From NCBI GenBank assembly GCA_009746045.1, contig RPFO01001901.1, positions 62,001 to 126,000 on the forward strand: a stretch of 64,000 nucleotides of DNA. Reading direction: 5' to 3'. Source of the DNA: Mesostigma viride. Its lineage: Eukaryota; Streptophyta; Mesostigmatophyceae; Mesostigmatales; Mesostigmataceae. A program made the translations under genes and the position numbers. Positions 7,503-38,479 of this stretch are shown here, piece after piece; positions within the stretch are counted from its first letter, which is position 1, and every line of letters starts with the position of its first letter. A model generated the notes under the pieces. The model worked only from the letters and a program-made list of their open reading frames with translations. It searched no databases and was not told where the DNA came from.

Positions 7503-7503
7503 T

Positions 7504-8820: not shown

Positions 8821-8829
8821 CCAGTACGT

Positions 8830-10525
8830 GGTATTCCTCCCAGTCCCGGCTGCTCGGCGCCCCCCCGCCGCCTCCGCCGCTTGGCCCTCTGGCGGCCGCA
8901 CGCCTGGCAGTAGCGCCTGCGGACGTCCCTGCACCGCCCACGCCGCCCACCGCTGAGCAGGACTACACGTACCCAGCCCTGACGGAACCCCTGGCCGACC
9001 CCAACGAGCTCCCGCCGTTCACCGAGCTCGAGCTGAGCACCGCCGCCAAGCAACTCCGCTTCTATGCCGCCGTTGGACCTGACCAGCTCCCAGCCCCCGT
9101 GATTAAGCTGACGGCGCTCACGGGGTTCCTGCTTGACGTCTGCAACCGGATCCTGCTTGCCGACGCGCCGCCGATTCCTGAGTGGCAGCACAGCTACCGT
9201 ATTATGCTGTACAAAAACAAAGGTTCCCCTGACGACCCCGCCAACTACAGAGGAGTCTGCATCCAGAGCGCCGCACTCAAGTTGTTCATGCGCATGATCC
9301 TCAACCGCCTTCGTTGTGCTCTCGACTGTCACCTTGGGGAAAGTCAAATGGGCTTCCGTCCTGGGCGCAACACCGTCATGGCCATCTTCGTCGCGCGTCG
9401 CCTCTTCGAGGAAATCGCTCTCCTGCAACCTGGTGAGTTTCCCGCCATCCTGATCTTCGTCGACTTCATCATGCAAGGCTTTTGATTCTGTCCTCTGGGA
9501 CGCTCTATGGGCTGTACTTGCTCGCGCTCGCGTCCCCACTCCCCTGATTATATACCGTCATCCGCACGCTGTATGAGGGGTCGACCACTTCGGTGCGCAC
9601 TCAACACGGCATTACCCCGCCATGCCCACTGCAGACCTGCGTCTGGCAGGGTTGCGTCCTGTCGCCGTACCTGTTTATTATTGTAGTGGATTATGTTATG
9701 TGCCAGGCACGTGCTCGCTTTGCTAGCATTGCAGGCCGTGCCCCTGGCCTAGCGATCACGAACGAGCTTGGGGAAGGGGGGCCGACTAACAAGCAGAATT
9801 CACTAGCTGACCTCATTTATGCCGACGACATCACGCTCATCGAGAAGCCGGAGTCTGCCCAACTTTGGCTGGACTGCCTGGCGCTCGAGGCTCGAGCGGT
9901 TGGTCTAGAAATCAGCCCCAAAACGGAGGCCCGGCCTGGCCCTCGGCATGGCAGGGCCCCCACCCACACTCCGCCTCTTAAAGACGACGCCGAGGTCAAC
10001 TACCCTCCTTCAGGACGCTTCAAGCTGCTCGGCAGTTGGCTTCCCGACTGCGATCGAGGACGACCTGACGACACGGATCGGCATGCATGGCGTGGGCGCA
10101 CCTCCATGACCACGGCCGCTGGTGGAGCAACCCCGCCCTACCCCGGATCGTCAAGCGTGACCTCTTCAAGGTCGTCATTCTGACGATCCTGACCTACGGC
10201 GCCGAGACGTGGACATGCACTGGCGCAGGAGCTGGAGCAACGACTGGACGGCGCCGTAACCAAGATGCTGCGCAAGGCCCTTAACATCCCCTTTGGTTTG
10301 CACGTAATTAGTAATGAGGATTTGTACGCTGATTTGCCCTATGTTTCCCACATTATTAGGCACAGGCGCCTGGGCCTAGCCGGGCACCTGGCCCGCACAG
10401 ATCAGGTAGATACATCAGATAGACTAGCTGGCACCAAGCCCGCCCAGCCTGCATGGGCGATATGTCCTCACCTGGCGTGCCCCCGGCCGCGCGCGGCAGG
10501 GCCGCCACCCGTGGACTTTTCGTGA
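8830..10525 (+). pseudogene. LINE A1 reverse transcriptase, frameshifted
   Basis: Contains all RT landmarks of LINE A: KNKGSPDDPANYRGV, GFRPGRNTVMAIF, FVDF (motif A, interrupted by a TGCA insertion at 9472-9475), QGCVLSPYLFI (motif B, PLQT-C-VW variant), LIYADDITLI (motif C, catalytic YADD) and the LTYGAETW thumb block. Frames change at the 4-bp insertions listed for this element, plus small indels and point changes. No functional ORF2 is left. Confidence 0.9.
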
Positions 10526-11317
10526 TAGACTCGGCATGGACATGTGCTACACTAGACGTGATGGGCTCACCCCCGGGCAGCCTCCTGGTTTGTCTGTAAT
10601 ATGGAGGCAGATGGTGCGCAAGGATAGATGGCAAGTAGTGATGAAGGAGACCACCCCCAAGCCTGTTGTGGGGCTCCGCGTGTGACCAAGTATGGCATTC
10701 ATAGCGATTCGGGCCGCGGTGCCCACACCCCTGTAACTAGGACCTAGATAGCTTATACCATCCATTCCATCCCATGTTCCCCTCCCACTGATGCTCACGT
10801 GACGCAGTCACGTGTCTATTAATTAATTAATTAATTAATCCTCATGCATGCGAAGGAGCACCTTTAATTAATTAATTAGGAACATAACTCCGTTGGGAGT
10901 GAGTATATGTAGCACATAGCCCTTGAGAAGGGGCATATGGCCTATAATACATTCTAAGCTACTTCCTGCCGCAAGGGTGGGAATGTAAACGACCCTTGCT
11001 CTATAGGTGCACCAGGGCACCTGCATCCCCATGATCTATCAAGCTATGCCCAGCTAAGGGGGAGCCTGTCATGGGGGGGAAGATCATCATAGCTATACAA
11101 AAGCTAGAGCGTGGCATCTCAGCAGAAAGCAGCTCTCTGCACGGGCACACCGTAACTAAATATAGCTAGGCATCATCTGGTGTGTGGCACATCATAGGCA
11201 CGCATGTACATGGCTAAATAATGCTCGTGAATCAGCTGGTATAGTGCCTGTAGGAGGCGTACATGTACATGGCCACGGTCTATCTATCCTACACTACTAT
11301 ACTACTGTATTCCCCTA

Positions 11318-11654
11318 AGCTGCATGGGGCGTCTGGAGTCGTTGGGGCCGCGGGGGTCGCATGCCAGGGCTTGTGGCCGACGTACGTAGATGGCCGCCCC
11401 CTTCCAGTACACCGGCTGCCCCGCCTTGGTCTGCCGGAGCTGGAGGTAGGTCGGCCATAGCTCCCGTCGCCGTTGTTGCTGCGCCAGGGTCAAGTCGTCG
11501 TCAAGGGTGAAGTGAGTGTTCTCGAGCCGCTTGCGGCGTCTGAGAAACGAAATCTTGTCCGCCGGGTTCTGAAAGGTGAGAAGGAGCGGGGGCGCCCCTG
11601 CCTTACCCCGCGCGCGGGGAAGGCGGTGGGCAACCAGCTCGATCTCACCATTAA
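11318..11654 (-). pseudogene. C1 ORF1, C-terminal part
   Basis: Reverse strand encodes the RRM-to-C-terminal part of an L1-type ORF1: FLRRRKRLENTHFTLDDDLTLAQQQ in pieces, RRRELWPTYLQLRQTKAGQ, then VYWKGAAIYV, the diagnostic C-terminal-domain pattern (RRELWP ... YWRG ... hydrophobic). It continues the reading of 13344-14438 once the piggyBac-like element is skipped. Confidence 0.8.
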
Positions 11655-13343
11655 CCCCTAAATGGTCTGAGATCCTGCCGATAAATCGGCTGGATCTTCA
11701 CAATTTTGCAAACCAGATGCCATCCAACCTACCCATATCCAATGGCTGTCCTTGGGGGCCAAGCATGTCCATGAGTTGCCCTTCGGGTTGGTATATCACA
11801 ACCTCACATATATGCAGGGTAGGCCATGTTTAACTGCCGTCAAAGTCAGGGGGGTCAAGACGCGCGTTTTCATTTTTGGTAGAATGTGCATTTTGAATTA
11901 TGTTATAAGACCTAGGCACCTACCACTTCAGGGATGATAAACAATTAGTTGCTGAACAGTTTGAGCTATTGGGGTCATAATTTGGGTGGGTATACCAGCA
12001 GTTACACCCAGTACAGCCCATAGGGGTACCGTTGGTAAAAAGCAACCAAGGGAGTAGGGGTGGGCATACTACCTCCTAATATGGCCACCAACCATGCCAA
12101 ACAATACATTTCCCTTCCACAATGATGGGGAAACATAACTGCATCATCACACTGCCCTTACATGGCACCTATGTGCAGGTGCCACCTTGTCCATGCACGT
12201 AGGTAACGTGGTACGGACACCCTACGCAAGGCATGCATTCTAGGAGGCAGCCACCAACAAACTAGTGGTGTTGAGCCTATTTCAGCCTGCCCTAGCAAGG
12301 ATAAACTAGGCCTAAGCTGCTATAGCTTGCCAGGTGATGGCCAGCACACCTGGTGGCACATGCTGTCAATGGGAAGCTTTTACTCACCGGTTACGTGCTT
12401 GATGATGCCACAGAGACCAGCCAACTGCCTCACACTCATGCAATATGTGTATGGGAAATGTATAACAAACATATATGGAGGTATTCAAACCCATACAGCC
12501 TCTAAAACTTATCACCATCACCCTGTGGCAGGTCAACTGACTGAGGGAAGCATCTAAGAAGGGTGTTTTAGAAAGGGGCCAGGCCAGGGTCAAGAAAGAG
12601 CATGAATAGTGCAAAAAGAATGTGCTACACAAGCTAGAACGTATATATAAACGTCAAACATCGATAGGAAAACGATGCTTAAGCTTTACCAGGCATGGAT
12701 GGCGTTAACTTGGCCCAGGCGGTGGCCGCAAAATGGCGCATTTCGGCACACCAAAGTTGTGCAGCATGGTCGCTGGATTCGGCGATTTCTGGCCACCCTT
12801 GCACGTTTACGACTACTATGTATCATAAAAAGTACAAAGAAACCAATATATCCTTTAAAATACGCCGGAAAGGTATTGCTGTCAACGTTTCTATCGTCCG
12901 GCCTGATCGCAGTTTTTTCCAGCAAGAACGCTGCCGACACCTATCAAATGGCATTCCCGCGAACCAAAAATTGGCCTGTATCATCTTTAGGACGTTTAAA
13001 ATCAATATCCTAAGTTTGGCCAGAAAATTCGAACGCAAACGTAAATGCCATGCGTGGGCGCAAGCCGCCATGGCCAGGTCGTCGTTTTCCGGAATGCACG
13101 TTGTACGTGAAAAAGTACCCTGACCCCTTGTACTTTGACCGGCCAGAACACCTCTATAACTTTGTCAAAAGTATGCAAACCCTAGTACCATGCTGTGAAG
13201 AATTTTATAAACTTTCGATCTTCTCAGCTAAACTTTTCCTAATTCTCAATAGATTTCGCGGCATCTGGTCCCCCGAGAAGGGGCCGATGCATCGGCTGGA
13301 ACTCGATTTTTGGCGGAAAATCGGCAGCAAGACCATTTAGGGG
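11655..13343. mobile_element. piggyBac-like element, non-autonomous
   Basis: Inserted at TTAA, present on both sides (11651-11654 and 13344-13347), with terminal inverted repeats starting CCCCTAAATGGTCT and a second inverted block around CTGCCGAT. TTAA duplication with CCC-starting ends is the piggyBac signature. Removing the element and one TTAA restores the collinearity of C1 with C3 (a MGL-GEI junction). The 1.69-kb interior shows no DDE transposase; short ORFs near 12670-13120 match nothing I recognise. Confidence 0.85.
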
Positions 13344-14438
13344 TTAAGGCCCATGCGACCAAGGATTTCTCTCTCAAACGCATGCGTAAGCTTCTTGGAA
13401 TTCTCACCTTCCTCCATGTCGAAGTTCCTGACGATGACGTTGAGGCTGCGCTTGGCGAGCTCGGCCTCCTCGCGGAGGGCAAGCGTCTGCCGCTGGAGCT
13501 GGGCTGCGACGGCGGAGGTGGTGAAGGTGGTGCGCTGCTTATTAAGCATGTCCGCCCAGGTCGTGATGGGAGGAGCATCGCCGGCCAGGCCAGCAGGGGC
13601 TGGCTTGGCGGCAATGACCTTCACCGCCTGGACGGTGAGGCCTGCGGTGTTTTGCAGGACCTCGATAGCGATGGCATTGTCCTTAAGACGCTGGTCGATG
13701 TCGCGGAGCTGGGCGGTGATGGAGTTGGTGGAGGCGGAGGGGGGGGGGGGGGGCGTGGAGGCGAGGACGGGATGGCGGTGGCGGTGAGGATGGTGGAGAG
13801 CTCAGCAGCCAGCGTGCCACCCACAGCTTCCACATCTGCAGCAATGGGCGTCACGTGCTGCATGTGAGAGGGCGTCGTGGAGGTGGTGGAGGAAGGTGGA
13901 TTCGGTAATGGGGGCGGGGTGCAGGAGGTCCTCGGCCGAGCGCTTAAGGATGGTAAAGAGAGCTGCGAGCTGAAGGCGGGGCCGAGACCACCCGGCCAGG
14001 TTGGTCGAAGAAGGGACGTCAGATACGCGGTGGGAAAACCGGCCGTCAGCTCCGTTGCGGAAAAAGTGGGTTCTGGAGTTGAGTTGCTGGCACAGAGCCA
14101 GCAGTGAGGCGTGTGACCCGTAAAACACGAGCTCCAGTATCTTGATGGGTGGCATGTCGAAAAAGGCAGGCCTGTTGACGTCGAAGGTTGTAAAGAGCCG
14201 ATCAAAGTCAAAATCACGCTCAGACCAGCCAGGTTCGCCTGGGCGACTGCGCTTTGGGTCAGGCGATGCAGAGGGCGAGGAAAGCCCGGGAGGTATTTGG
14301 GCGACCACCAGTGCGCGACTAGTGTCACCACTGCCTTCCGGCCCTGATGGCGAAGCTGCAGCCGGAGCTGTGAGACGTATTTTCATTGCCGAGCGCAGCC
14401 GCCAGGCTGCGTTGCGTCGAGGAGCGTTTGCTCGTCAT
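13344..14438 (-). pseudogene. C1 ORF1, N-terminal part
   Basis: From an ATG at 14438 the product begins M-T-S-K-R-S-S-T-Q-R, parallel to C3 and C2. It runs through a proline/serine-rich head containing SPSASPDPKRSRP, a FYGSHASLLALCQQL block, an AADVEAVGGTLAAEL coiled-coil start and a REEAELAKRSLNVIVRNFDMEEGEN block that begins the RRM-like domain. Frameshifts separate the blocks, and a proline tract near 13740 is expanded. Non-functional. Confidence 0.75.
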
Positions 14439-14439
14439 A

Positions 14440-14605
14440 TATCAAGCGTAATAGCTTTGGAAAATTATATCAGCATGTGCGTCTGAGAAAGACGAAGCGA
14501 TTAAGTGATATTCACAGCTGAATTCGGTGCTCAAACGTGAAAGTTATGAGCTCCGCCGTCAGCCATGGCTACCTCGTGGCTCGTGGCTCGTGGCTCGTGG
14601 CTCGT
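14440..14605 (-). promoter_or_regulatory. C1 5' leader with hairpin motif
   Basis: Minus-strand leader: CTCGTGG heptamer repeats, then GAGCTCATAACTTTCACG, then a CGTCTTTCT..AGACG hairpin and CTGATATAATTT just before ORF1. The same order occurs in C2, C3, B1 and LINE A5, so it is probably the internal promoter or another conserved 5' element. Confidence 0.5.
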
Positions 14606-14759
14606 TCAGAAGGAGCACCTGGCCGCGCCTTGATTGCCCTTGGGTTGCCATGTGAGGACATGGCGCGCGCAACGGTCGGCGCCATTCCAGACCGCGCGCG
14701 GACCGTTCCAGACCGAATGGCGCGCCCTGGCTGAGTGGGCTTGGTGCCAGCTGACCTAT

Positions 14760-15250
14760 CTCTAGCGTGTCTACCAGTGATCAGTGATCTGTGCGTTCCA
14801 GGTGCCCAGCTAGGCCCAGGCGCCTGTGTCTAAGAAGATGGGACTGAAACATAAGGCGAATCGGCATACAAATCCTCGTTCCGCTTTATGTAGCATCTTG
14901 GGGACGGCGCCGTTGAGTCGTTGTTCCAGCTTCTTGGTCAGCGCCCAGGTCTCCCCACCATAGGTGAGGATCGTCAGAACGACGACCTTAAGAACATGCC
15001 TCCGTTCAGCGTTCTTACGACGACCTTGATCAGCTAGTACCACAGTAGATATAGTTAGCTAAACAGGTAGGTAAGATATATAGGAGGGTTGCTCCCTACC
15101 GAAACGTAATGTAATGCTGCTCGTGCGTTTGAATCAATTAATTGGTTAATTAATAGACACGTGACCGTGCCACGTGAGCATAAGTCCTCAGTGGGAGGGG
15201 AACATGGGATGGAATGGATGGTGTAAGCTATCTAGTACGTGTAGGCATGT
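14760..15250 (-). mobile_element. LINE A-related 3' fragments
   Basis: 14760-15050 encodes on minus the thumb/C-terminal block of an A-like RT (VLKVVVLTILTYGGETWALT, then KLEQRLNGAVPKMLHK), diverged from A5. 15137-15250 is a separate A 3' end in the same orientation: the TTAA tail, the CACGTGACC..GTCACGTG region and the GGGATGGAATGGATGG motif. Together these are two truncated insertions. Confidence 0.7.
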
Positions 15251-15430: not shown

Positions 15431-16795
15431 ATGACGACCCCTAAAGCAAAACGGGGTTTGGAAAAGGAGCTTACCGGCTCCCAGCCCAACCCTCTCGCCA
15501 TCGTTCTTGCCCAGCCGCCTGGGCTCGCCAACTCACCGCCAGCAGACCCATCGCCAAGCGCCTCGCCTGAGCCCAAGAAACCATGCCACGATCGCCACAA
15601 ATGGAGCAAATTCTTGCCCGGCGACCAACTGTTCACCCTCCTCGAGTGGCAGAAGCTGTCGCCGCAGGAAGTCGTCGAAGTTCTCCAGTTCCTCACACAG
15701 GAGCGGAAGCTCTTTGTGGCCTGGAGAGGGGGGACGGCTATCGACTACCGCGACACGTCCTGGCTCTACACCTGTGACGAATCCCGCCAACGCACGGTTA
15801 TCTTGACCAGCTACTACCAGCGCAGCTTCGCCGACATCAGCAGAGCGCTCAAAGCCCCCGCCCCCGCACAGCCGGCAGCCCCATCGGCTTCCTCCCTCTA
15901 CAAGGATGACATCCGCGCAGTGCTGGAGGAGCACGTGACCTGGCAGCTGGCCGAGAAGCTGACATCGCTGAACACCACGCTCAACACGGTCGAGGCCCGG
16001 GTCTCCAACGTGGAAACCAAGGTCGTCCACAAGCTACAACCACAGTTCACGGCGCTACACACCGCGGCGCAGGCTTCGGAAACGCATGCTGCACTTGTCT
16101 CTCGCCTTAACCAGGTGGAAGGCAAGTACGGCGTGCTCATGAAGAAGCTTGAGGCCATCACCGCCCACACCGAGGCCCTGGCCACACAGGTCCCGAAGCT
16201 AGCGGAGCAGACGGCCACCATTGCCTCCCAGCCACCCCGGCAGGATGCTGGTGACCTCCCGCTCTCCTATGCGGACCTGCTGCGGTCAGCGACCGTCTCC
16301 ACCACCGACGCCATCGCCACGAAGCTCCAGGAGCTGGAGGACCACCGCCAGGCCCAGCAACGGGAGGTCACCGATCGCGCTCGCCGCGAGTGCCGAGTGG
16401 TGCTACGTCGCTTCCCCCAGAAGCCAGGTGAGACGTCAACCTCCCTTGCTGACGAGCTCAAGAACCAGCTTCTTACCCTCATGGGCCTGGTAGGTGAGGT
16501 AGAACTGCGTGGGTGCCACCGCCTTCCCCACTCACGGGACAAGGCGGCCACCCCACCAGTCCTGCTCACCTTCCTCTCCCCTGAGGATAAGCAGCGGTTC
16601 CTCTCTCGTCGCAAGCGGTTGCACGACCTCACCTGGACGCTGGATGACGACCTAACCCCCGCTCAGCAACAGCAGCGACGCGACCTGTGGCCGGAATACC
16701 TCCGCCATAAGCAGGACCCCCAGAAGCCCAAGGTGTACTGGAGGGGCGGGGACCTGATGATCAACCACAAGATGTGGACGCCCCCAGCGGGCTAG
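15431..16795 (+). CDS. L1-type ORF1 protein (family B), intact
   Basis: 454-aa ORF from an ATG that closely follows the conserved leader. The basic, proline-rich N-terminus (SPSASPEPKKP) is followed by a central coiled-coil stretch (about residues 155-255, with LNTTLNTVEARVSNVETKV). An RRM-like domain begins near residue 320 (ECRVVLRRFPQ ... TLMGLVGEVELRGCHRLP ... PVLLTFLSPEDKQRFL). The C-terminal domain contains LDDDLTPAQQQQRRDLWPEY and VYWRGGDLMI. This is the coiled coil-RRM-CTD plan of L1 ORF1p, an RNA-binding trimeric chaperone of retrotransposition. No CCHC knuckle is seen. It is the only full-length ORF1 of families B and C in the window, so this copy may still be expressed. Confidence 0.85.
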   Translation: MTTPKAKRGLEKELTGSQPNPLAIVLAQPPGLANSPPADPSPSASPEPKKPCHDRHKWSKFLPGDQLFTLLEWQKLSPQEVVEVLQFLTQERKLFVAWRGGTAIDYRDTSWLYTCDESRQRTVILTSYYQRSFADISRALKAPAPAQPAAPSASSLYKDDIRAVLEEHVTWQLAEKLTSLNTTLNTVEARVSNVETKVVHKLQPQFTALHTAAQASETHAALVSRLNQVEGKYGVLMKKLEAITAHTEALATQVPKLAEQTATIASQPPRQDAGDLPLSYADLLRSATVSTTDAIATKLQELEDHRQAQQREVTDRARRECRVVLRRFPQKPGETSTSLADELKNQLLTLMGLVGEVELRGCHRLPHSRDKAATPPVLLTFLSPEDKQRFLSRRKRLHDLTWTLDDDLTPAQQQQRRDLWPEYLRHKQDPQKPKVYWRGGDLMINHKMWTPPAG

Positions 16796-21841: not shown

Positions 21842-23300
21842 TCCTGACATGAGCCTGCACTTGCCGGATGGTAAGGCCGTGCCTGCCTACTCCGGTTCCC
21901 CCCCTCCGCTCTGCCGGAGCTGGAGGTAGGTCGGCCGACGGCCATAGCTCCCGTCGCCGCTGTTGCTGTGCCAGCGGGGTCAAGTCGTCGTCCAGAGTGT
22001 AGGAAGTCCTCGAAAGCTTCTTGCTGCATTTAAGAAACAACAGAGTATCCGCCATGTACTTTAAGGTGCATGAGGAGCACGGGGACCGGGCCAGCCTTAC
22101 CCCGTGCGCGGGGAAGGCGGGCAGCCTACATCCGCAGCTCACCAGCATGAGTTGCATGGGGTTAAGAATGTGCCGCTTACACGCTATGGCAAGAGACTGC
22201 GAGTTCTCACCTGCCGGCTGGTCAAAGTGCTTGACGATGACATTGTGGCTGCGCTGGGCGATGTCGGCCTCCTCGCGGAGGTCGAGCGTTTGTTGCTTGA
22301 GCTGTGCTGTGATGGTGGAGGCGGTGGAGGTGGTGTGGTTCTTCAGCATGTTCGCCCATGCAGGTCCGGGTGGGAGGAGCATCGTCGCCGGGGCCAGCAG
22401 ATGCCGGCCGGGCGGCAATGTCTTTAATTCACCGCCTGGGCGGTGAGGCCTGCGGTGTTTTGCAGGCACTCAATGGCGATGGCATGGTCGTGGAGGCGCT
22501 TGTCGATGTCGAGGAGCTGGGCCTTTATTTATTCTGTGGAGCTCAGCAGCCAGCGTGCTGCCCATATGGCTGCCACATCTGCAGCAAGGGGTTGCACGTG
22601 CTGCTCGAGGGCTTCCTTAGTTAAGGATGGAGCGGTAAATGGCTGCGGAAATGGTAGGAGCCCAGATCTCGCCATCAGAGCGCATGAGAAGTGAGCAGAG
22701 GATGAGGTCATTGAGCCTTGAGGTGCTGATCGAAGGCGGGGGGGTGGTTGGGGATGGTCCGTCCCATAGGTGAGGGGGCACTGCGTGTGCCGTCTGGGTA
22801 AATGAGGCGGTTGATGCTGTGGAGATGGAGGCACAGGTCGTAAAGTGAGGCTTAGTACCCGTAAAAGATGCAGAGCGTAGTACTTGGCGGGGCCATGTTG
22901 GTCCAGTTGTGGTCGGCAACTTTGAAGGGTGTCAGCCGAACTTGCGGTTCTGTTGGGCGCGATTCTGCTGGGCGGTTGCGTTTGGGATCAGAGGAGGCCG
23001 AGGGCGAGTTCGCAGGAGCCGAGTGCACTACTAAAGCTTGAGTAGTGTCACCGCTGCTTGGCGGAGGCCGGGCGGAGCTACAGGCGAAATTTCTTGGCTC
23101 AGCGCAGCTGCCAGGCTGCGTTGCGTAGTCGAGCGTTTGCTCGCCATAATATTGCATTTTAGTTTCGGAAAAATATATCAGCGTGTGCGTCTTAGAAAGA
23201 CGAAGCGATTGTGATATTCACGGCCGAATTTGGTGCCCAAACGTGAAAGTTATGAGCTCCGCCGTCAGCCATGGCTACCTCGTGGCGTGGCGCGTGTATT
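21842..23300 (-). mobile_element. ORF1-only LINE derivative C2, 3'-incomplete
   Basis: Minus-strand family C element. Leader 23150-23290 contains the hairpin motif and the sequence CGTGAAAGTTATGAGCTCC. ORF1 remnants run to about 21880. The usual C 3' UTR and TTAA tail are missing. It stands head-to-head with C3, about 190 bp away. Confidence 0.78.
21880..23147 (-). pseudogene. C2 ORF1 remnant
   Basis: Starts M-A-S-K-R-S-T-T-Q-R at the ATG at 23147. Contains SPSASSDPKRNRP, later LREEADIAQRSHNVIVKHFDQPAGEN (RRM start), the conserved LDDDLTPLAQQQRRRELWP of the C-terminal domain, and a degraded end. Several frameshifts make it non-functional. Confidence 0.72.
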
Positions 23301-23625: not shown

Positions 23626-24963
23626 ATGAGCAAACGCCTCTCGACGCAACGCAGCCTGGCGGCTGCGCTCGGCAATGAAAATCCGCATGCAGCTTCGGCT
23701 GCAGCTTCGCCCACCGGCCCAGATGGCAACGGTGACACTAGTCGTGCACTGGTGCCCGCCCAGCCTTCCGGGCTCGCCTCGCCATCTGCATCGCCTGAAC
23801 CTAAGCGCAGTCGCTCTGCTGAGCCGCCCTGGGAAGAGACCTCCTTTGACGTCAACAGCTCCGGCTTCTGGCAACGCAGCCCCAGTTGGTTCATGGAAGA
23901 CGTGTTTTACGGCAATCACGCCTCGCTTCTAGCCCTGTGCGTGTACCTCACGTCCCACAACCGTGGCCGCTGGCCTGGTGACGGCAAGCTTGTCGACCCC
24001 GCCGAGGCTCTCCCAATCATTCACCGCATGCCTCGCCCCAGGCTTCAACGCTTCGCCCTCTGCTCCCTTGTTGGACGCTCCGAATCCGAGATCTGGGCTT
24101 CCCAACCGCCCCCCCCCACCTTCCCCACCGAAGCCACCATCCGCACCCTCCTCAAGGAATTAGCTTTCGAGCAGCACGTGACCCCTCTTGCCGCAGATGT
24201 GGTGGCACTTGGCGGCACGCTGGCTGCTGAGCTCCCCACCATCCCCACCGCCACCGCCACCCTCCTCGCCTCCACCCCCCCCCCCCTCCGCCTCCACCGA
24301 CTCCATCACCGCCCAGCTCCGCGACATCGACCAGCGCCTCAAGGATAATGCAATCGCTATCGAGGTCTTGCAGAACACAGCAGGCCTCACCGCCCAGGCA
24401 TTGAAGGACATTGCCGACAAGCCAGCCCCGGCTGGCCTGGCCGGCGATGCTCCTCCCATCACGACCTGGGCGGACATGCTTAAGCAACATACCACCTCCA
24501 CCACCTCCGCCGTCGCAGCCCAGCTCCAGCGGCAGACGCTTGACCTCCGCGAGGAGGCCGAGCTCGCCAAGCGCAGCCTCAACGCCATACTCAAGAACTT
24601 CGACATGGAAGAAGGTGAGAATTCCGAGAAGCTTGCACGTGCGTTTGAGAGCTAAATCCTTGCACGCATGGGCCTTCTTGGTGAGATCAAGCTGACCGCC
24701 CGCCCACCGCCTCCCCCGCGCGCGGGGTAAGGCAGGGGCGCCTCCGCTTCTTCTCATCTTTGATAGCCCAGCGGACAAGATTTCGTTCCTCAGACGCCGC
24801 AAGCGGCTCGAGAATACTCACTTCACCGTGGACGACGACTTGACCCTGGCACAGCAACAACGGCGACGGGAGCTATGGCCGACCTACCTCCAGCTCCGGC
24901 AGACCAAGGCGGGCCAGCCGGTGTACTGGAAGGGGGCGGCCATCTACGTCGGCCACAATTAAG
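23626..24963 (+). pseudogene. C3 ORF1, near-complete but broken
   Basis: Reads from MSKRLSTQRSLAAALGNEN through SPSASPEPKRSRS, a MEDVFYGNHASLLALCVYL block and AADVVALGGTLAAELPT. It shifts frame in a proline tract near 24275 into AGLTAQALKDIADKPAPAGL and REEAELAKRSLNAILKNFDM, with a stop at 24655. The C-terminal domain (RRRELWPTYLQLRQTKAGQ, VYWKGAAIYV) follows in another frame. A TTAA insertion at 24959-24962 itself creates the final stop codon. Confidence 0.78.
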
Positions 24964-25764: not shown

Positions 25765-26450
25765 ACGGATCGGCATGGCGTGGGCGCACCTCCATGACCA
25801 CCGCCGCTGGTGGAGCAACCCCGCCCTACCCCGGATCGTCAAGGGTGACCTCTTCAAGGTCGTCATTCTGACGATCCTGACCTACGGCGCCGAGACCTGG
25901 ACACTGACGCAGGAGCTGGAGCAACGACTCCACGGCGCCGTCACCAAGATGCTGCGCAAGGCCCTTAACATCCCCTTTGGTTTGCACATTAGTAATGAGG
26001 ATTTGTACGCTGATTTGCCCTATGTTTCCCACATTATTAGGCACAGGCGCCTGGGCCTAGCCGGGCACCTGGCCCGCACAGATCAGGTAGATACATCAGA
26101 TAGACTAGCTGGCACCAAGCCCGCCCAGCCTGCATGGGCGATATGTCCTCACCTGGCGTGCCCCCGGCCGCGCGCGGCAGGGCCGCCACCCGTGGACTTT
26201 TCGTGATAGACTCGGCATGGACATGTGCTACACTAGACGTGACGGGCTCACCCCCGGGCAGCCTCCTGGTTTGTCTGTAATATGGAGGCAGATGGTGCGC
26301 AAGGATAGATGGCAAGTAGTGATGAAGGAGACCACCCCCAAGCCTGTGGGGGCTCCGCGTGTGACCAATTTATGGCATTCATAGCGATTCGGGCCGCGGT
26401 GCCCACACCCCTGTAACTAGGACCTCGATAGCTTACACCATCCATTCCAT
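25765..26450 (+). pseudogene. LINE A2, 3' fragment with ORF2 C-terminus
   Basis: Equivalent to the last quarter of the A ORF2: RIGMAWAHLHDHRRWWSNPA, VVILTILTYGAETWTL, KMLRKALNIPFGLHISNEDL. A 4-bp CATG insertion at 26133-26136 shifts the frame near the end; the identical insertion is at 10452 in A1, so those two copies share it by descent. Other A1 insertions are absent here. Confidence 0.85.
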
Positions 26451-27240: not shown

Positions 27241-27610
27241 TCTGCTCATCGATGTCTCCGTGGCTCGGCCGCTCTCCGGTCGCCACATTCTCCGGGCGGC
27301 TGTGGATGCCGGCGCTGCTGCCGCTGTGCCGTTGAGCCTCCTATGGCAATGTGGGGCCCCACTGGGTCAACCCCTTTGTCCTTGAGGAGTTCGGGGCCCT
27401 GGGCCCCAAGACGGCGGAGTTTTTCCAAGAGTGCTGCCAGCGCCGTGAAGACCGCCTCGACCTCGAGGGTCAGACCGCCCCGTGGTCTGCCCGCACGTGT
27501 TCCTCGTATTGGCCGGCGGCAGCGCCTGTCACTCGCCCTCACTCGCACCGTGGCTGATGTGTTATTCCGCCGCACCCGGGCCGACTTTGTCGCGACCCAT
27601 GCGGTCTAGA
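27241..27610 (+). pseudogene. LINE ORF2 C-terminal fragment, copy 2
   Basis: Begins LLIDVSVARPLSGRHI-LRAA, continues in another frame with PFVLEEFGALGPKTAEFFQE and RLSLALTRTVADVLFRRTRA, and ends at the same point as 25541-25764. The order DVSV..PL / F..E.FG..G / R.LS.AL is that of the C-terminal extension of many non-LTR reverse transcriptases in algae. Frameshifted and non-functional. Confidence 0.5.
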
Positions 27611-27770: not shown

Positions 27771-27777
27771 TAATGAT

Positions 27778-29905
27778 GGGACGGGACATGCCCGAATTTT
27801 TTGGCGCCAAAAAATTCGCGCCGGAACCCAAGGTCATAAATTTCACGTGCACAGTGCGCGCACCCCTTGCGGAAGTGGCCATGGCGACTGCGTTCAGGCG
27901 AAACTACCACACTAGGGAAAAATGCAAAAATTTTACTCGAATCTAAAAGACGATGAGTTAATGATGTTAGTTTGTGGCGGAAATCAGCTGGTTTACAATA
28001 TCGCTGTTGTTTTTTTATGCCATCGGCATGGGGGGTAATATGAATTTTTTGGTCGCGCGGAATGAAATAGAGTTCATGATCGCGGCTGTAAAATCCCGTT
28101 TATGGGGGTTGTTCTGACCGTGAAGCAGGCGTTAATATCGGTTGCATCGAATTCTAAACCGATCTGGTGCTTTTTGCCAGATTTTCGGCCATTATCGGTA
28201 AGTAATTGTTCAGACCTGCGCAGTGCGTGTCTGACCTGTCCATGGTATAACGGCTGTTGTTGCGCGCCTGGGCGAGGGATTTAGTAGGAGGGCGAGGTAG
28301 AGATTTGTCGCGAATGTTATCTGCTATCAGTGCTTTCTTCTATGAGCTCATCGTTCGAGTTTTTTTGCGTTCTTTTTGGGCAGTTTCCGCCAGCTAGCTC
28401 GCCGTCGCTTGCCGTTGTGTTGTCGAATACCTGGCAGCTTTAGATTGTTTTCGTTGATGTCGTGATCAGGGCCGCTTCAGTCGCAGCCTATAGCTCTTCG
28501 GGAACTAGGTATAAGGCATTTCATAAAACGAGTTCTGGCAAGGATTTTGTGCGTATGGACGCTTCTTGTTGTTTGAGAGTGATGCACCCTCTCTTCGCAG
28601 GGGCCCCGCAGCGGCGCATCACAGCGCTCATGCGCTGAAGGGCCGCCAATGGTTTCTTTGCATTTTATCGTGCAGGGATGGAAGTGTTTTAGTGATGATG
28701 ATGTTGGAGATAATGCATTTGTGTGACTGCATGTAGATAGCTGGCACCAATGGTTGTTTGAGCTTTCCTTTGTTATGATGATGTGACAAGACTACAATGT
28801 GCTGAGCCAACCATGGATGGTTGACATGCATGACTGCATGCAAGCTATATATACCATGTTCCTACTTGGTTCCTTGCCCTCCATAGTCCCAGTTTGTCAT
28901 CCATGCCGGGGAGGACAGTTTAGGAGGTGTTGTTGAGTCGATTAGCTTGGTTGGCATCAACCTTACACTCTAACCTGGGAGAAACATAGGAAATGCTCAC
29001 TTAGGCATATTCTGGAGCCCTACCAACATCAAGGCTATGAACCTTAGTATTTACAAGGCTGGCCATGCTGGAGGGATGATGAACACATATGAGGTGCGTG
29101 GCCACCCCTTTGTACATCGTAAACATACTCAGCATGGTTTTGGTGCATGTTGGATGGCATATTAAGTGGCACTGTGGGGTTACTAACTTACTGAGTGGTC
29201 CTTAGCGCCTTGTCAGGTGGTCATATAGGAAACCCATCGATCAACTTGAGTAGTTCTTGTCACAATGACCCCCCACGTTGAGCATGCGTTGCCGTCAGCG
29301 TGCAAGAGTTAATTATGCACATGTGCTTTGGTCAGTTTGCAGATCGATGTCTTTGATGAAGAAGGAGGTGCTAGTGTGGCTGAATGGTTACTATAATTTC
29401 CTTGTAGTGTCTACATGGGTGGCCGGCCGTCTTGGAATGGTTGTAACTTGGGCAGTTCCTGTCAGAACGTCGTCAAACCTTGAACACAGGAGGTACCATA
29501 TGTGCAGAGGATGGTAGTACGTGGTTTGGCCAGTTTTCACGTGGCCGAGATGTATAAAGGGGTGTTAGTGTGGCTAAATACTAGCTAGAACCTCCGTCAG
29601 CGTCATCACTGGTGGTGATCTAGGAATATCCATCAAATAGGGCTGCGCTTGTCAGAATGACCTGAAAATTTTGGGCTGCATTCCCCCCAACCTCTAGTAT
29701 TTGGGAATATATGATTTGGCACTATTCCTTGTGCTTATGATTTGATTTATTTTTTTTGGTGGAAAAAAGTACCCTTTTTGCGGGAAAATCCATCAATGTG
29801 TCTGAACATGATTATTCTGTGCTCAAAATTAGGCAGACTTTCTCAAGAGTCAGGGAACTATATGGGAATATGTGATTTGGTCCCAATATGTTTGCCCACA
29901 AACAA
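27778..29905 (+). repeat. Dispersed repeat R, copy 1
   Basis: 2.1-kb repeat collinear with 61908-64000. It starts GGGACGGGACA, followed by a 26-bp perfect palindrome (27793-27818, core TTTTTTGGCGCCAAAAAA). No long ORF is conserved between copies, so it looks like a non-coding or very old transposon. This copy is interrupted at 29905 by LINE A3. Relative to copy 2 it carries GATC (29239), TCGA (29344) and GGCC (29425) 4-bp insertions. Confidence 0.75.
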
Positions 29906-30345
29906 GGGGGGCCGACTAACAAGCTGAATTTACTAGCTGACCTCATTTATGCCGACGACATCACGCTCATCGAGAAACCGGAGTCTGCCCAACTTTGGCT
30001 GGACTGCCTGGCGCTCGAGGCTCGGGCGGTTGGTCTGAGAAATCAGCCCCAAAACGGAGGCCCTGGCCCTCGGCATGGCAGGGCCCCCACCCACACTCCG
30101 CCTCTTAGACGATGCCGAGGTCAACTACCCTCCATCAGGCCGCTTCAAGCTGCTCGGCAGTTGGCTTCCCGACTGCGAGGACGACATGACGACACGGATC
30201 GGCAATTGGCGTGGGCGCACCTCCATGACCACCGCCGCTGGTGGAGCAACCCCGCCCTACCCCGGATCGTCAATTAAGCGTGACCTCTTCAAGGTCGTCA
30301 TTCTGACGATCCTGACCTACGGCGCCGAGACCTGGACACTGACCG
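29906..30345 (+). pseudogene. LINE A3, internal RT fragment
   Basis: Starts GGPTNKLNLLADLIYADDITL (RT motif C, YADD) and runs to LTILTYGAETWTLT, lacking the 3' UTR. Frames shift at small indels, including a TTAA insertion at 30274-30277. Internal truncation at both ends is unusual for simple target-primed insertion and suggests later deletion or rearrangement. Confidence 0.8.
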
Positions 30346-32320: not shown

Positions 32321-32673
32321 GTGACAGGCAAAATCTGGTGAAGCCAAACTTCATACACTTCACCTTGTCCAAGACTGTGAGGGGGACGCCCCACATCTAC
32401 ATTGCAGTCTTTGGATGCGCCTCTTTCGCTTCTTCTTGTTGAAATCGGGCCACCCAATTTGTGGGAGGTGTTCTTCTTGAGGGAACTGCATTGTTCTGTT
32501 GAAAGTGTAAGACCCTTGGCATAAGGGCCACTTGAGTATTGGGAAGTTTGTCTTTATTCTTGAAGCATCCTTCCTGTGGAGACGTTTTTTGAGATAAAAC
32601 GTTTTTCTGTTCTTCCTGGGCAGTAAAGAATCTGGTTTTTTCTGCAACATTTTTAGTGGGGAGAAACTTGTCT

Positions 32674-33630
32674 ATGCAAAGGGATTTGACCACTGCTTTG
32701 TGGTGTCCTAGAGCTGCTGGAGATCCTATTGTTATTCCGAATCCTGATTACAGCACCGGGGCCTTCATCAGTGCTGCTGATAAGTTACCAAAGTTTGATG
32801 GTGTGGATCCCCGTAAGTGGGAGGCAACGAATGTCCGCTTTACCCGTTTGCTGAAAGCCTTTAACCTACATGGGGTAATCACGGGTGAGATCGTGGACGA
32901 TGGCAAGGACGCGGCAGTTCAGGCCGCGATGGGCATCTTTTTAGATGGCCTGGCTCTTATGCTGGTCAAGAATGTGACCAGTGCAAAACAGGCATGGGAG
33001 CTCCTGATGAAGAGGTTTGGTCACCACCGTACGACTGAGACCTATCAGGATGAACTGCGTCGCAAGCTTCGTTCCAAGGAGCCTGCACCAGTGGACAAGC
33101 CCCTCAATGAGTTCCTGGCAGCGAGGGAGCTGACGCGCGAGGAGTACGTCCAGGAGCTGGACGGGCGTTTTGACGACCAGGACATGGTCCTCTCTACTCA
33201 TGATCTCATGCCCGCTGCGATCCGGGTGATGATGGCAGCACAGGATGTACGCATCACCACACTCACGTGGGATGAGTACAAGGCACGTGTGCTGAGGATT
33301 GAGGACAGCATCAAGGCCCAGGCGGCCATCATGCGCAACACAGGCGGGGGGAAGCAGGGAGACACCAGGGACACCAGTTCTCTGGCTGGCGTCTTTGCTA
33401 CCATGGCGATGGAGGACGGGAAGAAGGGTGGCTGTTTTCACTGCGGCAAACCGGGCCACAAGGTCGCAAACTGTTTCAAGAAGCACCCCCACCTTCGCAA
33501 GGGGGGGAAGGACGGAGAGGGCAAGGCGCAGGCCAACTTGACGTCCACTCCTGATCAGCAGGAGGCACTGGAGGTGCCCCCTGGTTTTGTTTTCCACACT
33601 GTCGTGGAGGCTCCCGCTGACCAACTGTAG
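32674..33630 (+). CDS. Gag polyprotein of copia-like element
   Basis: 318 aa from the first ATG in frame (32674; the frame is open 18 bp further up without an ATG). Central part has the copia/UBN2-type Gag fold pattern: LPKFDGVDPRKWEATNVRF, then TSAKQAWELLMKRFGHHRTT, then LRRKLRSKEP and DMVLSTHDLMPAAIRVMMA. Near residue 255 is one CCHC knuckle, CFHCGKPGHKVANC (CX2CX4HX4C), for RNA packaging. The ORF stops with TAG at 33628-33630, about 80 bp before the polypurine tract. It forms the particle shell; RT and integrase must be supplied by another element. Confidence 0.92.
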   Translation: MQRDLTTALWCPRAAGDPIVIPNPDYSTGAFISAADKLPKFDGVDPRKWEATNVRFTRLLKAFNLHGVITGEIVDDGKDAAVQAAMGIFLDGLALMLVKNVTSAKQAWELLMKRFGHHRTTETYQDELRRKLRSKEPAPVDKPLNEFLAARELTREEYVQELDGRFDDQDMVLSTHDLMPAAIRVMMAAQDVRITTLTWDEYKARVLRIEDSIKAQAAIMRNTGGGKQGDTRDTSSLAGVFATMAMEDGKKGGCFHCGKPGHKVANCFKKHPHLRKGGKDGEGKAQANLTSTPDQQEALEVPPGFVFHTVVEAPADQL

Positions 33631-33710
33631 TATTTGTTTAGTGGTGCGTTGCTCCAGGGGCGCCCTGGCCACCATACCTTTTCGAGTCATTGTTTCCAGC
33701 TTGTCCCACT

Positions 33711-33718
33711 AAGGGGGG
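33711..33718 (+). promoter_or_regulatory. Polypurine tract
   Basis: AAGGGGGG immediately before the right LTR; primes plus-strand synthesis in LTR elements. Confidence 0.85.
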
Positions 33719-34461
33719 TGTCAGCCGTAGTGGGCCAAGGCAGTCCCGGCACTAGTTTTTTGGCTGTCAGTTAGCCTAATTAGTGGGACGACACAACTGT
33801 ACTTTTCCAGACTATTTAATTCGTGCTACGGATTTTTAGTGCTGCGTTTCAGGTCCGAGATACTGTACGGATCATACTTTTGAGACCCGTTGTAATTGTT
33901 TTTGGGTCCGGACTATATGTGGAGTGCTACAAAATATTGTACCGGTGCTGGTGTGGCACCGACGGTACATTTTGGATTGCTTATGCTGCCACCGTACGTT
34001 ATGCAGCAGGATCCGCGCTTCGCGCAGATCTTAGGGACGTTGGTACTGTTTCTGGTTTTTCACCTATGTGAGTGATTTTGTCTAAGTCCGAGCTTGTGGC
34101 GCATGTCTGAGAAAGAAATCATAAGAATGGTAGAGTATCAGACGCGGCGCAACTTTTCAGTCCTTTGTGCATGTATGCATGCACATGTGTGCTTGAATGC
34201 ATCCGACCACCTAGAACGCGCCGCCACGTATCGTACGGCTGTGATCTGTTTGTGTCGTGACCTGTCCTTTGGGCGGCGTAGCATTTAGCCTAGGCACTGC
34301 TCCTTGGCAACTCACGCTCATGCCTTATTTCACACGTTTTTCACCATGAAGGACGTGAAATGTGGGCGTCGGCATTTGTGATTTAATGCTTGTCTTTTAA
34401 GCGTTATTTAATAACCAAGATCAATTTCCTCCGATCACCTTGGTTCAGTGCAAATGCAACA
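33719..34461 (+). repeat. 3' LTR
   Basis: 743 bp, with no difference from the 5' LTR noticed by eye; followed by the CTTTC target duplication. Confidence 0.95.
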
Positions 34462-35241
34462 CTTTCACACCCCTGAAAATAAAAAAATCATAACTTATAG
34501 CCCACAAAGTTTCCAACTGATACCCCCAACCAAGATGTTAGGAGTATCTACACTTCAAGGGCTTTCAGAATATGCAATTTAATGTCATGAGTCTAGTAAG
34601 TGTTTTGGATGATACATTCATCGATGATACAATCATCGTCTTCAACATTCGATCATTTTTTTTGCATTTATCTAGCCCTACATGGCTATAGTTTTGCCTA
34701 AAAGCAATGGCCATGGCCACTTCCGCAAGGGGTGCGCGCACCGTGCACCCACTTTTCACAGTATATATACGGCTGGTACCGCGAATTTTTTCGCGCAGAA
34801 AATATTCGCCGCGCCACGTCATCCATCAAAATGAAATTAAATTATAACATGACTCCGTTGGGAGATCATGTAGCACATATTCCCGTGGATGGATGGAGGG
34901 GGGGCAAAGCCGCAAAACCGAACTAATCTAACTCTAAGCTAATATCTAATCTAGAAAACCCTACCTATTCTACTCAGCAAAGCGCCCCTTCCGCTTGGGG
35001 GGAGCTGGGGCTGGCATGTGAGCCTGGACAATGGTCTTCCACCTCTTCTTCTTGTTGTCCTGCATGGATAGCAGTCCAAGCAAGAGAGAGGGAGTGAATG
35101 TGATGTTCAAACTGAGCTGGGACCACTAGGTCAGCCACTGAGCAACTGCTGTGGGTAGGTCATGACATGTTTGCCTACCTTCTTAGGAATGTCCTCGGGG
35201 CCAGGCCACTGAGGTCAGGATACGCCGCCCTGGCTGGCCAA

Positions 35242-36801
35242 CCGTGTTGGTCTGTACGGCAGTACGGGGTACTCGGTAAAACCCTTGCGTACTGTAAAAA
35301 TACAGGTATTTTTGCGAGGGGTAAAAAATACGCGAAAAAATACGCAGTACGGCATACGGGGTATTTTTGAAATTGTGGTAAAAAAGTACGGGGTATTATT
35401 GAGGCCAAGGCTTAAAGTACGGGGTATTCTAAGGATGTGTGGCCCTGCAGCCAACAAATGTTACTATGTACTATGCTCTCTGCTATTCATTAATGAGCAT
35501 AATGGCAGTGACTTGCCACCTGCCACACTTAGATCGACATTGCAATACATCCTTCAAGTACATTTGTATATTGTGGACATGCAAACTATTGACCATCTAA
35601 CACCGGCCTCTTTTATTACAATGCGTCATTGACAACATAATACATTATTGAATGGTATAATGCACCCAGAGCTCTGGCAGCCTCGATGCAGAGGATGTCA
35701 TAGCACTATAGATGGCAGCTTCGCTGCACAATGACAACAACTAGTGCATGCCACGAATCCCTAAAAAATAAAATCATTGGCAATGAACCCAGAATTGACC
35801 TTCACTGCTGCGGCAGGTCCATACTTTGCCACTGCCGCGATCATGTGCTTGTACGAGGCGCTGGCGGCGACGTGAAACGGAATGCCATTCTCGTAAAAGA
35901 AAGAGGCCTGGGCAAGGCGGACTTCCTGGAGCTGCGCATTGGAAAAGCACTGTGGAATCGTCTTCTGCACTGCCTTGCCAGAGCCACAAGGGCCAGCACC
36001 CGGGGCAGCGGCAGGCAGAAGGGCCTTGGCAACGCGGGCACCGAGCACTGCCTTTTGCTCCTTCTTTTCCAACCGGGCTGCCTCAGCCGCCTGAAGCCTC
36101 CCGATCAGGCCTTCTACATGATTCCTAGACTGCTGGCAAAATGTGGCTCCCTTGTTGGGGATGTGGCCGAGATGGCCGACAGCGCGATCCTTGCTAAAGT
36201 TGCCAGGCCTGCCGAACTTGTAATCGCACAGCTTGTACGCCTGGCCACCTCTGGCCGACTACCACGTCTTCCCCACTCACGGTCTTTTCCACCTCGTCAA
36301 TCAGGTGGAGGTATTGATACTCCTCTCCCCTTTTGACGACTGGAACTCTAGGCATGGTCGCCTCTTTTAGGATTGCCTAGCGCACAATACATGAACCGGC
36401 GCACCCGGCACCCTCTATTTGCTTCAATTGCGTCTTCACTCTTCTGCGTCTTTCTGGAAGTGCACCTGTCCCTAAACCTTGTGATTCTGCCATGCATATG
36501 CTGTCTGTCCCCTTTACAGCTTTTCTCCCGCGCAATAAAAAATCCTGTCAAAAAATGTAGAAAGCGGCACACCGTCACGCGTGTACTAGCAAGTAGCTAT
36601 GCACTCGCTGCAATTTCAGCAATTTCAGTACCACTGACAGGTCTGGGCCTCTCCCCACCGCGTGACACGTCCGCGACCTCCAAAATCGGCTAAGTCCAAA
36701 GTGAAAAACAGTGAAAATCGTACGGCGTACGCGGTCGAAAGCGTCAGTACCGTGGAATACGGCGTATTTTCATACCCGAGGTGCCGTACGAACCAACACG
36801 G
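35242..36801. mobile_element. hAT-like DNA transposon (hAT2)
   Basis: Terminal inverted repeats of 18 bp with two mismatches (CCGTGTTGGTCTGTACGG left, CCGTGTTGGTTCGTACGG as the complement of the right). 8-bp target duplication CTGGCCAA at 35234-35241 and 36802-36809. Subterminal TACGGGGTA/TACGC motifs resemble those of hAT1. Encodes a broken BED/DUF659-type transposase N-terminus but no catalytic core. Confidence 0.85.
35761..36355 (-). pseudogene. hAT transposase N-terminal remnant (BED + DUF659-like)
   Basis: From the ATG at 36355: MPRVPVVKRGEEYQYLHL and acidic residues. After a frame change come YKLCDYKFGRPGNFSKDRAVGH-type residues and NKGATFC, a BED zinc finger with C, C, H and C in order. 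Further on, SFFYENGIPFHVAASASYKH plus IAAVAKYGP is the conserved start of the DUF659 region of hAT transposases. It ends before the DDE core. At least one frameshift separates finger and DUF659 blocks. Confidence 0.75.
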
Positions 36802-36894
36802 CTGGCCAAGCCGCTGGGGGCCGGCCAGACCGAGGTCGGTGTCTACCTGGCTGGTGCAGGCAAGATGTCCTACGAATGCTATCCTACGCGCTGC

Positions 36895-37254
36895 CTAATC
36901 TCGTCCAAAATACGAGGCATACCCTGATACAAAAACTCTAAGGACCGATGCTTGCATGGAAAACCCACCCTTCAGGGCCTGACCGAGCATCCGGGTTACC
37001 GTGCCGTCTAGCTTGGCCGCCAGCGTGTCCGTGAGCGTCCATGCCTCAGCGCCATACGTGAGCACCGTAAGGACGAGGACCTTGAGGAGCATGCGCTTGC
37101 GGTGCTCGCCGAGGGCCTTCGAGTGCCAGTAGGTTTTGAGCGAACGATGCCTAGCCCAGGCCAGGCCGATGCGGGTGTCCACATCCATGGAGGGGGCCAT
37201 TATATGGGCGCACATGCGCATAGGCCTGTGCCACGTGCGCATAGGCCTGTGCAT
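36895..37254 (-). pseudogene. LINE D reverse transcriptase C-terminal part
   Basis: Minus reading gives MDVDTRIGLAWARHRSLKTY, VLVLTVLTYGAEAWTLTDTL and AKLDGTVTRMLGQALKGG. This is equivalent to the segment RIGMAWAHLH ... TYGAETWTL ... RLDGAVTKMLRKAL of LINE A, at roughly half identity by eye, so a related but distinct family. The reading breaks off toward hAT2. Confidence 0.75.
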
Positions 37255-37289
37255 GCCACTGAGCTAAGCTAGCCTGACTAATCTACACT

Positions 37290-37650
37290 ACTGCTATATA
37301 TATTCCCTAGACTGGGGTTGCTGGGGTGGCATGAGGGGGCGCCTGCCAGGGCTTGTGGTTGACGTGGATGACGTCCCCCCTCCAGGATACCGGTTTCCCC
37401 CCTGCGCTCTGCTGGAGCTGGAGGTAGGTCGGCCATAGCTCGCCGCCGTTGTTGCTGTGCCAAGGTCAGGCCGTCGTCCAGCGTGTAGCAAGTCCTCTCG
37501 AGAGAGCTTCTTGCGTCATTTAAGAAACGACAGCTTATCCGCCATGTAATCAAAGGCAAAGGTGAGGAGCAGGGGAGCCGGGACAGCCAGTTATACCCCG
37601 CGCGCGGGTAAGGCGGGCCGCGGCAGCCGACATCCCGAGATGACATTGAT
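37290..37650 (-). pseudogene. Family C ORF1 fragment (C4)
   Basis: C-terminal half of a C-type ORF1 on minus: LERTCYTLDDGLTLAQQQRRR, then WPTYLQLQQ-like and a GNRYPGGG block. A short 3' UTR piece with GGGAATATATA ends it. Broken by frameshifts. Confidence 0.65.
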
Positions 37651-37654
37651 GACT

Positions 37655-38479
37655 ACAGCGCTCAACATGGTGGACGGGAGGCCAAGGTCTCCAATACGGA
37701 AACCAAGGTCGCACACAAGCTACAAACTCAGCTCACGGCGCTGCAGACCACGGCGCAGGCATCCGAGGCACATGCTGCACTCCTCTCCCGCCTCAACCAG
37801 GTTGAGGGGAAGTGTGGCGTGCTCATGAAGAAGCTTGAAGCCATCGATCACCACCCACACCGAGGCCCTGGCCACACGGGTCCCAAAGATAGCGGAGCAG
37901 ACGGCCACCATCGCATCCCAGCCACCCCGGCAGGATGATGGCGGCCTCCCGCCGGCGCTCTCCTATGCGGACCTGCTGCGGTCAGCGACCGCCTCAACCA
38001 CTGACGCCATCGCCACGGAGCTCCAGGAGCTGGAGGACCACCGCCAGGCCGAACAACGGTAGGCCATGCACCGACCGCGCTCGCCGCGAGTGCCGAGTGG
38101 TGCTGCGTCGTTTCCCCCAGAAGCCGGCCAGGTGAGACGTCAACCACCCTTGCCGACGAGCTCAAGGACCAGCTCAGTCTCACCCTCATGGGCCTGGTAG
38201 GTGAGGTAGAACTGCGCGGGTGCCACCGCCTTAATTCCCCACTCACGGGACAAGGCGGCTCCCCCACCAGTCCTGCTCACCTTCCCCTGGCCTGAGGACA
38301 AGCGGTGGTTAATTCCTTTCTCGTCGCAAGCGGTTGCACGACCTCACCTGGACGCTGGACGACGACCTGACCCCCGCTCAGCATGCAGCAGCAGCGACGC
38401 GACCTGTGGACGGAATGCCTCCGCCACAAGCAGGACCCCCAGAAGCCCAAGGTGTACTGGAGGGGCGGGGACATGATGA
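37655..38479 (+). pseudogene. B2 ORF1 remnant
   Basis: Pieces in changing frames: LNQVEGKCGVLMKKLEAI, EALATRVPKIAEQTATIASQ, LSYADLLRSATASTTDAI, ECRVVLRRFPQKP, LMGLVGEVELRGCHRL, then QQQRRDLWTECLRHKQ. Nearly every frame change coincides with one of the 4-bp palindromic insertions, which shows directly how this ORF was inactivated. Confidence 0.8.

Follow-up and report, generated by a model that had tools for sequence, protein, structure and literature searches.

Dead repeat copies in a 64-kb stretch of the Mesostigma viride genome (contig RPFO01001901.1, positions 62,001 to 126,000; hereafter the window, numbered from its first base) contain stereotyped four-base insertions in which a dinucleotide XY has become XY-rc(XY)-XY, where rc denotes the reverse complement. 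These insertions are real and are not local to the window. We consider it likely that they were left behind when cut-and-paste DNA transposons excised and the flanking ends were sealed as hairpins. The first-pass annotation, made from the letters of the window, had drawn attention to recurrent +4 indels of this form, and alignment bore this out, with 20 of the 39 four-base insertions in the window having the canonical form exactly, compared to an expectation of 1.3%.

For this count, the repeats of the window were aligned all against all, and distinct insertions were kept if at least 8 of 10 flanking bases matched on each side; the comparisons cover repeat copies against repeat copies only, single-copy DNA having no partner. 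Insertions of four bases outnumbered those of any other length (39 of 127 distinct insertions), and the null for the canonical form among random four-base inserts was 0.0132, giving a P of about 1e-27. A duplicated XY flanks the joint on both sides in 20 of the 39 window insertions, and in 8 of the 10 found in two other families. With the canonical insertions removed, no other way of splitting four bases into duplication and palindrome fitted more than 3 of the 19 that were left. A stricter, independent exact-seed method that excluded simple-repeat contexts found 15 of 29 four-base insertions to be canonical. In a curated set of 22 sites, with 4 sites of ambiguous XY left out, the middle bases were the reverse complement rather than the plain complement in all 14 sites where the two rules differ (XY = CA/TG, GA/TC or AC/GT). 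CA/TG served as XY in 9 of the 22 curated sites, compared to 3.3 expected from base composition with coding bias uncontrolled, and the flanks on both sides were rich in G+C, features that an integrase target might have.

The insertions lie in long interspersed elements (LINEs), a short interspersed element (SINE)-like repeat and other repeats, as follows.

149..152: TATA, SINE copy (weak)
8826..8829: +4 ACGT (GT to GTACGT), right 8-bp target duplication of a hAT-like element, the left one undisturbed
9472..9475: +4 TGCA (CA to CATGCA), LINE-R copy A
9551..9554: +4 TATA (TA to TATATA), LINE-R copy A
9933..9936: +4 GGCC (CC to CCGGCC), LINE-R copy A
10054..10057: +4 TCGA (GA to GATCGA), LINE-R copy A
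10084..10087: +4 TGCA (CA to CATGCA or TG to TGCATG), LINE-R copy A
10216..10219: +4 TGCA (CA to CATGCA), LINE-R copy A
10452..10455: +4 CATG (TG to TGCATG), LINE-R copy A, common to copy D
26133..26136: +4 CATG, LINE-R copy D, at the site of 10452 in copy A
30274..30277: +4 TTAA (AA to AATTAA), LINE-R copy E
41904..41914: +8, LINE-R copy B, fitting two nested +4 events, not in window copies A, C and D
11321..11324: +4 (TG to TGCATG), LINE2 copy
11384..11387: +4 ACGT, LINE2 copy
24959..24962: +4 TTAA (AA to AATTAA), LINE2 copy
29239..29242: +4 GATC (TC to TCGATC), repeat U
29344..29347: +4 TCGA (GA to GATCGA), repeat U
29425..29428: +4 GGCC, repeat U
37846..37849: +4 GATC, in a copy of the 15957-16760 repeat
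38067..38070: +4 TGCA, copy of the same repeat
38126..38129: +4 GGCC, copy of the same repeat
38233..38236: +4 AATT, copy of the same repeat
38311..38314: +4 AATT, copy of the same repeat
38384..38387: +4 TGCA, copy of the same repeat
22067..22072: TG to TGCATG, beyond the first-pass list
22357..22362: CA to CATGCA, beyond the first-pass list
27511..27516: GG to GGCCGG, beyond the first-pass list
39953..39958: TG to TGCATG, beyond the first-pass list

The sequence was read at each of 24 coordinates. All but one (21) of the 22 four-base sites that the first-pass annotation had listed proved to have an undisturbed homologue in the window, that of 8826 being read at its junction with the hAT-like element (the left target duplication). 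The exception is the site at 149, where the +4 reading is backed, by eye, by one of two other SINE copies. Comparison of the copies also confirmed that 10452 and 26133 are one shared event, as had been proposed. The LINE-R copies most useful for polarity, and the element inside one of them, are these.

7009..10840, + strand: LINE-R copy A, heavily scarred, with 7 canonical events plus 8826
41797..46922, - strand: LINE-R copy B, which retains three long open frames (875 amino acids with RVT_1, 367 and 464 amino acids)
7504..8820: hAT-like element inside LINE-R copy A, with an 18-bp perfect terminal inverted repeat CAGTGTATAATCATACGC

Copy B served as the polarity reference, except for its own +8. 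Some undisturbed copies keep an open frame (875 amino acids in copy B, 454 amino acids at 15431), so at those sites the insertion is the derived state. The 3' part of copy A differs from copy B by 22 substitutions in 1976 aligned bases. Scar load varies among repeat copies, and dead, old copies would be expected to carry more. At one site, different copies carry different insertions: CATGCATGG at 10084 in copy A and CAATTGG at 30205 in copy E (+2), versus CATGG.

At least one scar arose in DNA after insertion of the element that carries it. The hAT-like element is flanked by an 8-bp target duplication, CCAGTGGT, of which the left copy is intact and the right copy reads CCAGT-ACGT-GGT. Since the +4 at 8826 is present in the right duplication only, it is later than the hAT-like insertion, which is itself later than insertion of the LINE. 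The 8-base palindrome that had been noted at 41907 fits a nesting of two events, from GTAAC to GTACGTAAC to GTATATACGTAAC, and window copies A, C and D lack it. Thirty-nine other near-full-length matches were 1263-1273 long (mostly 1266) versus 1274, which fits absence of the +8 from most of them, match length alone being a measure that cannot show the 41907 site itself.

We also examined repeat copies outside the window, and the excess of the canonical form held there as well. In two other reverse-transcriptase families, fam1 and fam2, 20 fetched copies each and mostly about 98-99% or more alike, a uniform analysis found three four-base insertions in fam1, two of them canonical, and seven in fam2, six of them canonical. 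An initial fam1 run had given four four-base and four two-base insertions, some at an alignment edge, compared to three and two in the uniform rerun. Every four-base insertion in these families was confined to a single copy, and the eight canonical events fell in six of the more diverged copies. For LINE-R itself, a pattern search found 928 copies with both anchors in the genome (440 Mb, 2,243 contigs). Among the first 100 of these, 53 had the common length, 46 were longer and 1 was shorter; +4 was the most frequent gain (10 copies), followed by +3 (8) and +2 (6), these being net lengths over about 325 bases, with -10 to +20 visible, some of which sum several events and none of which shows the form of the insertion. 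Separately, the fam1 and fam2 copies (L009-L048) have numerous one-base deletions even though they are otherwise near-identical. Such deletions make up 43 of 47 and 43 of 51 deletion sites in the two families and are probably residual read error in the assembly.

The form of the product suggests how such insertions could be made. An element would insert with a 2-bp target duplication, giving XY-element-XY, and its excision would leave both flanks closed into hairpins, in the manner of RAG and hAT transposases. Each hairpin would then be nicked by a host nuclease two bases beyond the tip, so that the left 3' end would read XY-rc(XY) and the right one rc(XY)-XY; the complementary terminal two bases could anneal and, after filling of the gaps, XY-rc(XY)-XY would result, a net gain of four. 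Because the last two bases of both ends would be complementary whatever XY is, one product would dominate. If XY is self-complementary, all four bases could anneal to give XYXY, a net gain of two, and trimming of the ends would yield variants of +1 to +3. The middle bases follow XY and therefore do not derive from the ends of the element, unlike those of mariner footprints. Scars of this kind would build up in dead repeat copies, since no selection opposes them there. Within this scheme, what we infer from the sequences is the target duplication of 2 bp, the formation of hairpins, the place where they are nicked and the CACTA/EnSpm-type source discussed below.

Two-base insertions were examined after self-complementary XY proved scarce among the +4 sites. 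The window has 30, from which 3 were dropped (two in simple repeats and one compared with a scarred copy). A self-complementary dinucleotide was duplicated in 5 of the remaining 27, compared to 1.0 expected. One of these, at 44188, more likely represents a deletion in LINE-R copy A, since copy B keeps an open frame there, which brings the count to 4 of 26. Among the fam1 and fam2 copies, TA had become TATA in 4 of 6 two-base insertions; the earlier fam1 run had two further two-base insertions, one at an alignment edge, neither of which is a self-complementary duplication. P2-only +2 insertions in the window numbered 5 of 27 versus 2.8 expected, and plain duplication of a non-self-complementary dinucleotide showed no excess (1 of 27 versus 2.8 expected). 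A few variants that resemble trimmed products were seen by eye, such as AAGTA to AATTTA in copy D and TTAG to TTAAAG in copy A.

Other forms were tried on the four-base insertions. A four-base fill-in duplication, abcd to abcdabcd, of the topoisomerase II type was rejected as the general explanation: it matches 7 of the 49 insertions when all are pooled (null 0.0164, 0.8 expected), a minor excess to which the 21 non-canonical insertions contribute 4, and it leaves the main class unexplained. The form ab-rc(abcd)-cd, in which the reverse complement is set in the middle of the quartet, fits 6 of the 21 non-canonical insertions (null 0.0086), namely those at 28602, 28813, 29318, 37498 and 40641 of the window and one in a fam1 copy. 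It came from ten forms tried, and some of the six also fit other forms, so we take it as a lead only; such insertions could be left by an element with a 4-bp duplication that is cut two bases inside the flanks.

With regard to the source of the scars, we tentatively name a CACTA/EnSpm-type element as the likeliest, because Transposase_21 is abundant in this genome and the clade has duplications of 2 to 5 bp. Transposase_21 (PF02992, CACTA) was found at no fewer than 150 places (150 of 239 candidates were scored, and all 150 were above the cut-off), and its large equal-score groups suggest recent activity. The CACTA/EnSpm-Mirage-Chapaev-Transib (CMCT) group resembles the proposed source in this abundance of PF02992, in its RAG1-related transposases and in the length of its duplications; one report places CACTA, Transib and RAG1 in a single transposase clade with duplications of 2 to 5 bp (PMC12730594). 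Among the 20 fam2 copies, at least 4 contain a DNA transposon whose breakpoints could be resolved (E40 in two, E47 in one and a TTAA element in one). The elements with readable ends include the following.

Window 11651-13347: TTAA-type element, 1.7 kb, in a LINE2 copy, with 18-bp perfect inverted ends TTAACCCCTAAATGGTCT
L040:1680-2163 and L037 from 4258, also genome-wide: E40, 484 bp (others about 493 bp), with 25-bp perfect inverted ends GGCCGGGCCCACTTCAAATGTTCCG
L047:4312-5095, also genome-wide: E47, 784/785 bp, with inverted ends CATCAAG..TAATG

Of 559 candidate E40 copies, 40 were scored, with 97-100% identity to the query, and the target duplication was 4 bp in all 10 copies read. A long element in L049 with an E40 end has open frames of 811 and 444 amino acids and no convincing Pfam match. 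For E47, 40 of 752 candidates were scored, with 99-100% identity, and the duplication was not fixed: 10 of 20 copies lacked any match, two of them with the same flanks, while the remaining 10 and all 8 further copies matched over 1 to 7 bases. E40 and E47 were rejected as the scar source on account of their 4-bp and unfixed duplications, neither of which predicts the canonical form.

Several observations weigh against the excision of hairpin-sealed elements. None of the few elements with readable ends has a 2-bp duplication, CACTA ends not being among those read, and no convincing terminal-inverted-repeat element with such a duplication was found in the window or the fetched loci. The duplications that could be read were 8 bp for the hAT-like element, 5 bp for a 645-bp element and 4 bp for E40, besides those of the TTAA elements. 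Of the 39 four-base insertions in the window, 19 deviate from the exact form, and three self-complementary sites gained four bases where two would be expected: 9551, the weakly supported 149 and the nested event at 41907. An unaligned count of such hexamers in the window was not above that of control arrangements. Hexamers with a collapsed homologue numbered 51 of 487 under the reverse-complement rule and 51 of 412 under a plain-complement rule, which does not separate the two, both counts being inflated by (AATT)n LINE tails and by rule-neutral dinucleotides such as AA and CC. Published excisions are also far more varied, so a single dominant product needs explaining: excisions in rice are reported to be much less uniform, 8 of 94 being 'perfect' with just the duplication left (PMC4423477), and 28 footprint types are reported for Ds in Candida (PMC5873905).

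Other origins for the insertions appear less probable. A nuclease or domesticated transposase that cuts repeats with a 2-nt stagger and hairpin ends, and so inactivates them without any element ever having been inserted, would give the same product form, and it draws support from how densely some copies are scarred (LINE-R copy A has 7 canonical events against 22 substitutions) and from the lack of a 2-bp-duplication element among those whose ends were read. However, the location of the eight canonical fam1 and fam2 events in six more diverged copies fits a steady process, and transposons are abundant in the genome; we regard this explanation as unlikely. Also unlikely, in our judgment, is a genome defence in which repeated DNA of M. 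viride is cut by a domesticated, RAG-like nuclease that leaves hairpin ends and a 2-nt stagger, the uniform +4 repair product shifting the reading frames of repeats through insertion instead of base change. The first-pass annotation had suggested a 2-nt staggered break with a P-nucleotide-like hairpin copy, arising either by excision or by a process that inactivates repeats. The stagger and the hairpin-derived bases are the reading that the data favour; since abundant DNA transposons are present, no special inactivating process is needed.

Breaks of the Topoisomerase VI/Spo11 type have 2-nt 5' overhangs and would supply the stagger that belongs to the form. However, fill-in of such breaks alone yields XYXY, and plain duplications of non-self-complementary dinucleotides show no excess (1 of 27 versus 2.8 expected). 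Polymerase template switching over two bases would presumably have no reason to halt at exactly two, and we hold it and break fill-in together to be very unlikely. Most window examples lie in retroelements, as would be expected if reverse transcriptase had made the insertions while each LINE copy formed. This origin is refuted for 8826, which lies in one target-duplication copy of a later hAT-like insertion, and two events seem nested in LINE-R copy B; as a general explanation it is highly improbable. Least probable of all is assembly or read error. The one-base deletions that dominate the deletion sites of fam1 and fam2 do look like residual error, but the likely errors are one-base deletions rather than four-base palindromes, one event is common to two loci (10452 and 26133), and it is the more diverged copies that carry the canonical events.

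Hairpin chemistry of the kind proposed for transposon excision is already known, and what is unusual here is the uniformity and dominance of one product. The target duplication of Ac/Ds, a hAT system, is 8 bp. Two reports describe Ac/Ds footprints as palindromic P-nucleotide joints from hairpin ends, in which, as here, the palindromic bases come from the flank and not from the element and trimming produces variants (PMC5873905, PMC4561436). Unlike the many footprint types of Ac/Ds (the 28 mentioned above), one +4 product dominates in M. viride, implying a 2-bp duplication. In V(D)J recombination the hairpins have a two-base nick position and the coding ends are not known to carry a target duplication, whereas here both ends would be complementary whatever XY is. 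A likeness to V(D)J coding joints lies in the hairpin-sealed ends made by RAG, which Artemis is reported to open to 3' overhangs (PMC8533500). Tc1/mariner elements share the 2-bp duplication. Their target is TA, and TA is XY in just 1 of the 22 curated sites, so a Tc1/mariner footprint was rejected. Moreover, their footprint bases are described as element-derived (PMC4561436), whereas in M. viride XY is variable and the bases in the middle change with it. Repeat-induced point mutation (RIP) likewise leaves dead repeat copies with many lesions. RIP makes C-to-T changes, whereas the lesions here are insertions. Among the titles and abstract openings listed by searches of open-licence papers, none describes the +4 XY-rc(XY)-XY form.

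Besides its LINEs, SINE-like repeat and hAT-like element, the window holds a pair of identical 743-bp direct repeats that may be long terminal repeats, and a gene with a Frigida domain, which points to the green lineage, Frigida being a plant family. A pattern search of viral and prokaryote contigs confirmed no relatives of the LINE.

Finally, these insertions bear on how the genome of M. viride is read. One stereotyped insertion is a leading class of small length change in its repeats, and one LINE family shows a large surplus of net insertions over net deletions (46 versus 1 in the first 100 of 928 LINE-R copies). Analyses of this genome that are based on indels would be biased by such insertions. 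From the scars one could trace past transposon excisions and see, in a natural setting, how an organism opens and joins hairpin-sealed DNA ends outside the immune system.

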